Assembly: GCA_025352325.1 (NCBI GenBank)
Contig: JANXTR010000033.1
Location: 62,001-126,000 of the forward strand
DNA from: Microbacteriaceae bacterium
GTDB lineage: Bacteria > Actinomycetota > Actinomycetes > Actinomycetales > Microbacteriaceae
Length of the DNA stretch: 64,000 nucleotides
Direction: 5' to 3'
Part shown: positions 6,509 through 62,894 of the stretch, in pieces
Layout: each line of letters opens with the position of its first letter
Position numbering within the stretch: the stretch's first letter is position 1
Made by a program: the position numbers and the translations under genes
The notes under the pieces: model-generated
Database searches by the model: none
What the model was told of the DNA's origin: nothing
The model's input: only the letters and a program-made list of their open reading frames with translations

Positions 6509-6593
6509 TCCGAAATGCAGGAGAAACTCGCCGAAAGGGCAGCCGTCCCCAAGAATCGCGGGCAACCGGATGTCGCAACTCCTGCATTTCGGA
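6509..6593. repeat. Inverted-repeat element, perfect 15-bp arms
   Basis: TCCGAAATGCAGGAG (6509-6523) and CTCCTGCATTTCGGA (6579-6593), 55-nt spacer. Confidence 0.8.
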
Positions 6594-12784: not shown

Positions 12785-12859
12785 GTTCGCAATTCAGGTC
12801 GACCACAGGTTCGGCATCCGAGCGAGGGCACGGGCAGCCTTCGAACCTGAATTACGAAC
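12785..12859. repeat. Inverted-repeat element at the 3' end of the DUF559 gene
   Basis: GTTCGCAATTCAGGT (12785-12799) versus ACCTGAATTACGAAC (12845-12859), 14/15 complementary, 45-nt spacer. Confidence 0.75.
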
Positions 12860-13695
12860 GTTGCGGTGGGATCGGACCGCCCCGACGATCGCCAAAGCGA
12901 CCGCACGTTCGTCGAACACGACCTGCGCGTAGCGGAAACGAAGCGGCGTTCGGCCGGATGCGGCGACCACGGCATCGCGGCGCCGGTCCTTCGGGGAGGT
13001 CGCCGCGTCGTGAAACTCATCACCGTCGGTCTCGACGACGATCCAGTCCTCGATCAGTACATCGACCGGTCCCGCACCCTTGATCCAGACCTGGGTTCGC
13101 ACCCTGAATCCGAGTTCCTGAGCAAGAAACCTGACGATGGACTCGAGACCGGACTCCGCCGATGAATCGAGTCGGCCAAGAAGCCACCGCCGGTGCTGCG
13201 GGACGGCCACGGAGATCGCACCCAGGTCCCGCGGATGAATCTTCCGCTGGTGGAGGGCACTGTCGAGTGCGGCAATCGCGGCCCGCGGCGGGAGGCACCC
13301 GATTGCCTGGATGAGCGCATCGACCAGCGATATTCGATCGTTCGTCGCGCCATCGGGCTCCCGCAGCGGCGCCCAGTGCACGACGCAGCTCGAATCGGCT
13401 CGGCGCGCACCCGTCCAGCGGGGTCACGGAGTCGTGCCGCATGTGCCGCGACGTGCACGTGAACGACTTCGCGATCCGTCAAGGTCCAGATCCCGCGCAG
13501 GTCGAGCTCGGAGGCGCACGCCAGTCGCCCACCGACCCGGACAGCCGCCTGAACGTGGTGATCGAGTTCGGGCAGGCAGTAGTGCCCGCGTCGCAGTCGG
13601 ACGAGGTCGCCGCGGTGCACGGCGGCGGCGATCCCGCGAACTGTCATCCCGGAAGCGAGAAGCTCAGCGCGCGGCGTGGTCGAGGAGGAATGCAT
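12794..13695 (-). pseudogene. AbiEi-like HTH plus DUF559 (Vsr-like nuclease) protein, split by an apparent frameshift
   Basis: N-terminal part MTVRGIAAAVHRGDLVRLRRGHYCLP (frame of 13695); C-terminal part ALIQAIGCLPPRAAIAALDSALHQRKI...ESIVRFLAQELGFRVRTQVWIKGAGPVDVLIEDWIVVETDGDEFH (frame of 13381); the frames switch near 13381-13425. Confidence 0.75.
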
Positions 13696-13764
13696 GTCGG
13701 CGAGGGTCGCGTCACCGTGGGCTGCTCCGGGCCCGACGATCGAGATCGGTGGATGCGAGATCCG

Positions 13765-13838
13765 GTTCGCAACTCAGGAGGGATCGACGAATCACGTGCG
13801 AAATGCGTTGATCGCGGCATCCAACCTGAATTGCGCAC
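13765..13838. repeat. Inverted-repeat element upstream of the DUF559 gene
   Basis: GTTCGCAACTCAGG (13765-13778) versus CCTGAATTGCGCAC (13825-13838), 12/14 complementary. Confidence 0.65.
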
Positions 13839-61466: not shown

Positions 61467-62894
61467 TCAGGATTCCGGGCTGATCACGAGTGTGCGCAGC
61501 TCGGTCATGTGCTCGATGGCGTACTTGACTCCCTCGCGGCCAAGCCCGGAGTCCTTGACGCCGCCATACGGCATATGGTCAATTCGGTAGCCCGGGACGT
61601 CGTTGATGATCACGGCGCCGACGTCTAGTCCTTCGAACGCGGCCCAGATCGTGCGCAAGTCGCGGGTGAACACACCGGCCTGGAGGCCGAAGTCGCTGTC
61701 GTTTACCCGCGCGATCGCCTCAGTCAGGTTGTCGAAGACGTCGAAGGTCGCGACCGGGGCGAAGGCCTCCTCGCGCATCAGCCGGGCTTCCGCCGGGACC
61801 CCCTCGAGTAGCGTTGGGCGCATGTAGGCGCCATTGCGCGACCCCCCAGCCAGCAGAGTGCCGCCCATCGAAATCGCCTCGTCCACAAGGGTTTTGGTCT
61901 TCTCGGCAGCCTGCTCCGAGATCATTGGGCCAAGGTCGACGCCGAGGTTGAGTGCGTCGCCGACAAGTAGCGCCTCCGCCCCTGCCACCATGCGCATGCG
62001 CAGTTCGTCGGCGAGCGACGAATGGACCAGGATCCGCTGTGTCGAGATACAGATCTGCCCCGCGTACTTGAATGCACCCTGGACGAGGCGTTTCATCACG
62101 ACATCCAGATCGGCGTCCTCGGCAACGATTGCGGCTGCGTTCCCGCCCAGCTCGAGTACGACTTGTTTGCGGCCTGCGCGCGCCTTCATGTCCCAGCCGA
62201 CCCGTGCTGAGCCCGTGAACGACAAGAGTTTAAACCGGTCGTCGGTCACCATCGCGTCAGCTACGTCGATCGCCATCGGGAGCATGCTGAGGGCACCCTC
62301 GGGGACGCCCGCGTCGACCATCACTTCGGCCAGCTTGAGTAGCGTGAGCGCGACGCGGGAGTCCGGCTTCAGGACGATGGGGTTGCCGGCGGCGATGGCT
62401 GGGGCAAGCTTGTGAGCGGACAGGCTGAGGGGGACGTTGAACGGGCTGATGCCGGCGACCGGACCGATCGGGATACGTCGAGTGATCGCCCACTTACCGG
62501 CGGACGACGCCACCAAGTCAAGCGGCAGAAGTTCGCCGCCCATACGCTCGGCCTCTCCCGCTGCGTAGTGGAAGAGGAATGCAGTGCGTTCGGTCTCGAC
62601 CAGAGAATCGCCGAGCGGCTTGCCGATCTCCTGCGCCATCGACCGGGCGATCTCGTCCTTTCGAGCCAGGATTCCGCCGGCGATGCGCTGCAAGATGGCC
62701 GCACGCTCGAACGACGGCATCCGCTTCGTCACGTCGAACGCGACCACAGCCGCAGCGGTGGCACGGTCGAGCTGCTCGGCAGTTGCGAGAAACGTGCGAC
62801 CTAACACGTCACCAGTGCCGGCGGCGCGGGCGACGAGGTCATCCCCAGATGACTCCCACACGCCCCCGACCAGGATCGGCTGCGCGTTGGTCAC
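61467..62894 (-). CDS. Aldehyde dehydrogenase family protein
   Basis: GPVAGISPFNVPL, SFTGSARVGWDMKARAGRKQVVLELGGNAAAIV, YAGQICISTQRILVH; GTG start. Confidence 0.93.
   Translation of the reverse strand: MTNAQPILVGGVWESSGDDLVARAAGTGDVLGRTFLATAEQLDRATAAAVVAFDVTKRMPSFERAAILQRIAGGILARKDEIARSMAQEIGKPLGDSLVETERTAFLFHYAAGEAERMGGELLPLDLVASSAGKWAITRRIPIGPVAGISPFNVPLSLSAHKLAPAIAAGNPIVLKPDSRVALTLLKLAEVMVDAGVPEGALSMLPMAIDVADAMVTDDRFKLLSFTGSARVGWDMKARAGRKQVVLELGGNAAAIVAEDADLDVVMKRLVQGAFKYAGQICISTQRILVHSSLADELRMRMVAGAEALLVGDALNLGVDLGPMISEQAAEKTKTLVDEAISMGGTLLAGGSRNGAYMRPTLLEGVPAEARLMREEAFAPVATFDVFDNLTEAIARVNDSDFGLQAGVFTRDLRTIWAAFEGLDVGAVIINDVPGYRIDHMPYGGVKDSGLGREGVKYAIEHMTELRTLVISPES

Follow-up and report, generated by a model that had tools for sequence, protein, structure and literature searches.

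DUF559 proteins are common in actinobacteria, where they have no assigned role. The locus described here raises the question of what such a gene is doing between two copies of one inverted repeat; it lies in a window of 64,000 nucleotides, the whole stretch of DNA that was analysed (positions 62,001 to 126,000 of contig JANXTR010000033.1 from a Microbacteriaceae bacterium). The original prediction was that the gene and its repeats might be a REP/RAYT-like unit, whose protein recognises or mobilises the palindromes. The two inverted-repeat pairs it had placed at 12785-12859 and 13765-13838 were confirmed and are above chance: the window contains four arm matches with at most two mismatches, where 0.22 are expected, and 100 shuffles never gave as many. 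The downstream dyad (12785-12859, unstranded, 75 bp) has the arms GTTCGCAATTCAGG and CCTGAATTACGAAC around a 47-nt interior, and the upstream dyad (13765-13838, unstranded, 74 bp) the arms GTTCGCAACTCAGG and CCTGAATTGCGCAC around 46 nt, close to the spacers of about 45 nt first proposed. Both window copies have the architecture that defines family 1, two inverted 14-bp arms, GTTCGCAAYTCAGG, flanking an interior of 46-47 nt.

The gene between the dyads is read from the minus strand. The downstream dyad overlaps the 3' end of its DUF559 frame and the stop codon (12794-12796), which does fall in the left arm, and the upstream dyad lies 70 bp from the ATG (13695) of the N-terminal frame, as had been estimated. 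The idea of a single gene bracketed by repeats holds for the bracketing but not for an intact gene, which a frameshift divides in this assembly. Its N-terminal frame (13054-13695, minus strand) encodes an AbiEi_4-type winged helix (PF13338, E 1.3e-4), with real homology up to about residue 100 that then continues out of frame; the C-terminal frame (12794-13381, minus strand) encodes the DUF559/Vsr-like nuclease domain (PF04480, E 9e-6) and is 39-49% identical to homologues in relatives. A second DUF559 gene of the same genome (C3:46937-47789) is likewise split across two frames, through either decay or assembly error, and because both genes are found in this state the system may be decaying in its own genome. 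An FMN riboswitch (RF00050; 13972-14104, plus strand) of the ribD operon lies outside the element and marks the chromosomal site, trpS ... ribD.

The encoded protein is predicted to be an AbiEi-type winged helix fused to an EDxHD/Vsr-like, PD-(D/E)XK-like endonuclease. Pfam, profiles and fold matches all support this reading, an AbiEi-type helix-turn-helix with a Vsr-like DUF559 domain, which had been put forward from the start. For the Microcella pacifica homologue, the AlphaFold model (pLDDT 86.6) finds its best PDB folds in the AbiEi antitoxin 6y8q and in the catalytic domain of the homing endonuclease I-Bth0305I (3r3p), the latter being the best nuclease match (E 6e-4, TM 0.78 by target length), and sequence profiles (Pfam AbiEi_4 and DUF559/MTES_1575) agree with the model. 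PADLOC gave weak AbiEi and homing-endonuclease similarity only, and NCBIfam added nothing of use. In an alignment of about 70 homologues one glutamate and two aspartate positions are invariant, another glutamate is 94% conserved and arginines are strongly conserved; as far as sequence can tell, the acidic residues are consistent with a working nuclease.

Further copies of the element were found both in the genome and in its relatives, and the family recurs across Microbacteriaceae. The 2.83 Mb draft genome contains nine complete family-1 copies, all of 74-75 bp, and one half copy, and its reversed-pattern control gives none. The exact two-arm pattern matches 17 of 400 Microbacteriaceae genomes, with a control of zero in all of them. 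When about 85,000 species were scanned, each represented by one genome, 54 family-1 stretches were obtained, whose hosts are Microbacterium, Microcella, Plantibacter, Cryobacterium MAGs, Homoserinibacter, Agromyces, Planctomonas and related MAGs; the dyads and the DUF559 genes are a feature of soil and water actinobacteria. One family-1 element is carried by a contig labelled as a Planctomycetaceae MAG (JAHBXU010000411.1), probably a mis-binned actinobacterial contig. The viral contigs searched for the family-1 element gave no match, and a phage origin was rejected on that ground. The half copy (L061:5362, that is G000:C8:185361) consists of one perfect arm followed by IS-end-like sequence, with no close second arm, and an IS-like gene lies near it at 6965-8362 in L061. 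In another genome, G269, the solo elements (L069-L075) mostly form tandem pairs 8-20 bp apart, with unrelated interiors and gaps.

A third element of the window, at 6509-6593, had been described as related to the bracketing pair. It is a real dyad, solo and unstranded, mapped here to 6510-6592, with arms CCGAAATGCAGGAG and CTCCTGCATTTCGG and about 59 nt between their CAGG cores, but it does not belong to the same family, the only link being a AATNCAGG-type core. Its family, family 2, with arms GAAATGCAGGAG and a 58-nt spacing, numbers 35, 34, 18, 14 and 14 copies across five genomes from a single genus and three in the own genome, with reversed-pattern controls of zero in all of them. An element beside the DUF559 gene C3:46955 of this genome, CTTCCGAAGTGCAG ... 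CTGCATTTCGGAAG, resembles the arms at 6509-6593, and judging from this resemblance C3:46955 is the likely cognate gene, located elsewhere in the same genome. A congener, G060 (L260, L269), has 14 family-2 elements with perfect arms and no detectable DUF559 homologue, which means that arms can persist without the protein. This is the strongest contrary fact, which could be explained by recent gene loss or by a function of the sites in the host.

The association with DUF559 genes was scored by taking the best upstream inverted-repeat pair and looking for its recurrence downstream, de novo and with no assumed arm sequence. Bracketing on both sides was found for 37 of 63 DUF559 genes from 28 genomes and for none of 261 control genes comparable in size (Fisher p 5e-32, in a set where related genes are not independent), while the bracket is below threshold in the other 26; control genes served as the null because window swaps between DUF559 genes are contaminated by shared arms. 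The enrichment next to DUF559 genes, which the original prediction had proposed to test, is thus present, and the arms are subfamily-specific, for example AGAAATGCAGG, CCCAAATCAAGG, GTTGTGCAGG and GAGGCAATTCGTC. In other Micrococcales families, 5 of 16 DUF559 genes score at least 38 of 42. Wherever two family-1 elements lie about 1-1.2 kb apart, a DUF559 gene is located between them; solo elements, which are most of the dispersed copies, have no DUF559 gene nearby. The nearest protein relatives mostly have the same or a similar arm, the arm labels being our own assignment; since gene and adjacent elements are also co-inherited, this match alone is weak evidence of recognition. At some DUF559 genes (L087:661-900; L107; L108) the arm is repeated directly every 15-22 bp on both sides, which gives nested dyads of 58/80/99 and 57/79/101.

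The spacing of the arms increases in steps of about 11 bp (47, 58, 69, 79). Among 122 unique family-1 pairs, with interiors of 10-140 nt allowed, 66 have an interior of 46-48 nt, 25 of 56-60 and 15 of 67-70, with nothing between these classes, and most of the larger values arise from combining tandem copies. Other families have spacings of 57-59, 69, 77-80 and 99-101, and their nested arms follow one another at 15-22 bp. Steps of this size put the arms on the same face of the helix. The interiors are much less constrained: orthologous elements differ at 3.1% of arm positions against 17.5% of interior positions (the pairs compared overlap), which indicates that the arms are maintained. The 64 family-2 copies have weak dyad-symmetric preferences in their interiors (CCCG, central C/G) and no base-pair covariation between mirrored interior positions (0.358 against 0.376 expected), and the dyad elements have no match in Rfam; an RNA or single-stranded DNA hairpin was rejected on these two grounds. 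Taken together, the ladder of about 11 bp, the unrelated interiors and the absent mirror covariation argue for a phased multi-protomer complex on duplex DNA and not for a hairpin, and we picture the dyads, from their sequences, as candidate sites for such a complex.

Interior similarity was found only between tandem or orthologous copies, and among 16 copies of one genome none exceeds shuffles. Whole-element copying within that genome was rejected on this evidence, and recent copy-and-paste of whole elements is thus not seen directly; unrelated interiors can mean that the copies are old and only the arms have been kept, or that the process involved does not copy the interior. No target-site duplication was found in the element flanks. 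Many solo and cassette sites are in fact old, common to several species, and they look more resident than mobile.

Cassettes of element, gene and element occupy recurrent chromosomal sites. The trpS/ribD site is occupied in two congeners of the own genome as well, by bracketed DUF559 genes whose arms differ. At two sites in one genus, the flanks keep 90-97% identity until some 40 bp or less from the elements' outer edges, and the cassettes inside them are distant homologues, about 72-76% over 250-290 nt; near-identical flanks around distant cassettes indicate that the element-gene-element unit has been exchanged. The comparison of empty with filled sites suggested by the original prediction revealed both among congeners, in addition to these whole-cassette swaps. 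The site of the G269 cassette, for example, holds only a short spacer in four congeners and elements of other families in two; the congeners with the empty site have no dyad there, and a solo pair of G269 is missing from four congeners. One neighbourhood, found in several genera at nine loci, contains DUF559 genes with quite different arms, as if it had been repeatedly re-occupied.

Solo elements are mostly extragenic, their median distance to a facing stop codon being 33 bp, and are over-represented in convergent gaps (23 convergent against 15 divergent). Two solo sites of congeners have alternative arm types, GTTCGCAAYTCAGG or TTCCCYAACTCAGG, within conserved flanks. The solo arm type is that of the arms around the genome's own DUF559 gene in five of seven genomes, with TTCACAACTCAGG counted together with GTTCGCAAYTCAGG; one of the remaining two disagrees, and the cassette arms of the other were not identified. 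At two solo sites (L321, L322 and L335 compared with L027 and L029), a GTTCGCAAYTCAGG element directly follows an apparent remnant (CCCCAACT, TTTCCCGTCTC) of the alternative element's left arm, which hints that replacement took place inside the arm. The intergenic site of one G269 element (L074) has other, unrelated palindromic repeats in congeners (L248, L249, L250), including TTGAGTAGC repeats and a perfect GGTGCGGTTTCGGCTGGATGGC palindrome.

Several known systems share part of this organisation. I-Bth0305I, an EDxHD homing endonuclease reported to act as a dimer on a target nearly 60 bp long (PMC3943268), has the same Vsr-like catalytic fold with conserved acidic residues; here, however, there is no intron or intein, the DNA-binding domain is of AbiEi type, the sites are many and dispersed, and the gene lies between two complete dyads instead of interrupting its own cleavage site. 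The AbiEi antitoxin (6y8q) also begins with a winged helix; it binds inverted repeats cooperatively and bends DNA, and in its known operators the gap between repeats differs by about 10 bp, 3 against 13 (PMC7319586). Upstream of the gene there is an inverted dyad. The DUF559 proteins differ in their fused nuclease domain, in arms that are much farther apart and in dispersed copies. By eye, none of the neighbours of the window gene read from the open reading frames (GNAT-like, trpS, riboswitch, ribD) resembles a toxin such as AbiEii (DUF1814). The MTES_1575/DUF559 Vsr-type REase domains (Pfam; PMC3710099) are of the same nuclease family; that account describes conflict-system fusions with HEPN, transglutaminase, helicase and wHTH domains, in passages that do not mention palindromes. 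The shared internal sequence of an insertion sequence or MITE is absent from the 16 copies of one genome, and no target duplication was found.

The closest parallel is the REPtron (PMC8266576), in which a nuclease gene, usually single copy, adjoins copies of a dispersed extragenic palindrome present many times, made of two inverted units with a linker, with tandem pairs and co-variation of protein and palindrome. All these features have their likeness here, and dispersed extragenic palindromes with a gene flanked by cognate copies are what a canonical REP/RAYT (TnpA-REP) system would also display. Nevertheless, such a system is extremely improbable: its nuclease is a HuH/Y1 tyrosine enzyme related to IS200/IS605 transposases, whereas the DUF559 proteins have an EDxHD/Vsr-like domain with a winged helix, a fold that contradicts it; the arms appear to form phased duplex dyads with a free interior, without the GTAG tag of a hairpin acting as folded single-stranded DNA; and whole cassettes are swapped between congeners here, whereas no evidence for mobility of tnpA-REP is reported (PMC8266576). 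For these reasons of nuclease type and duplex behaviour, the REP/RAYT reading in its strict sense was abandoned. Equally hard to sustain are chance inverted repeats or RNA hairpins such as terminators. GC-rich genomes abound in inverted repeats, and compared with base-shuffled sequences the interiors fold somewhat better (mean z -1.8), but the empty reversed-pattern controls in every genome contradict this explanation, and the unbracketed control genes, the lack of an Rfam match and the lack of pair covariation also oppose it. The dyad system fails one defining test each for REP/RAYT systems, homing endonuclease genes and IS/MITE elements; by analogy, it may work like a REPtron or a homing cassette.

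Two other explanations deserve more weight. The protein might be an AbiEi-like autoregulator or transcription factor, the solo dyads being selected operators of a small regulon and the nuclease having another or a vestigial role. The fold, the known cooperativity of AbiEi on inverted repeats (PMC7319586), the promoter-like position of the upstream dyad, the conservation of arms over drifting interiors and the occurrence of solo dyads at sites orthologous between several species would all suit a regulator, which we consider rather unlikely since there is a second dyad downstream of the gene, solo dyads lie mostly at gene 3' ends, where an operator would be poorly placed, the acidic residues of the nuclease are invariant and cassettes are exchanged as units. 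Alternatively, the dyads could be sites useful to the host (terminators, nucleoid or domain sites, REP-like sequences), merely exploited or resembled by DUF559 genes. Their extragenic location near stop codons, the convergent-gap enrichment and the family-2 copies in G060 speak for this, but arm sequence tracks the DUF559 subfamily, some congeners have empty sites, copies are tens at most and very uneven among species, and the bracketing of the gene itself is left unexplained; its probability seems lower still.

The explanation that best accounts for the whole, with a probability of about one half, is that the AbiEi-EDxHD nuclease gene belongs to a selfish element, homing-like or REPtron-like, that uses the dyads as its addresses, and that the window holds a decayed copy of its element-gene-element cassette. 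Two protomers would bind the arms from the same helical face, in the manner of AbiEi at an inverted-repeat operator; the upstream dyad copy would autoregulate the gene, the nuclease would cut at or near dyads, and repair after cutting would let cassettes and solo dyads spread and be replaced. Binding, cleavage and mobilisation by the protein are what we infer from this pattern. A bolder version, which we consider less probable than this, would make it a new class of selfish element in bacteria: a homing-type nuclease with phased operator pairs, one on each side of the gene, would seed or overwrite solo operators, gene and sites would switch specificity together, and rival families would replace each other at fixed addresses.

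The dyad-bracketed gene appears to represent a small element, selfish or regulatory, of a kind not described before, and a search of the open-access literature found no paper tying DUF559 to palindromes or inverted repeats. What is new is the combination: its operating logic parallels that of the REPtron and the homing cassette, and its sites resemble AbiEi operators. For each DUF559 subfamily the DNA partner can now be predicted from sequence, which makes binding and cutting directly testable. If our reading holds, these actinobacteria would provide a second, unrelated answer to the problem posed by REP/RAYT systems, the spread of short palindromes, built on a homing-endonuclease fold, and also a natural series of protein-site pairs in which changes of specificity could be studied.
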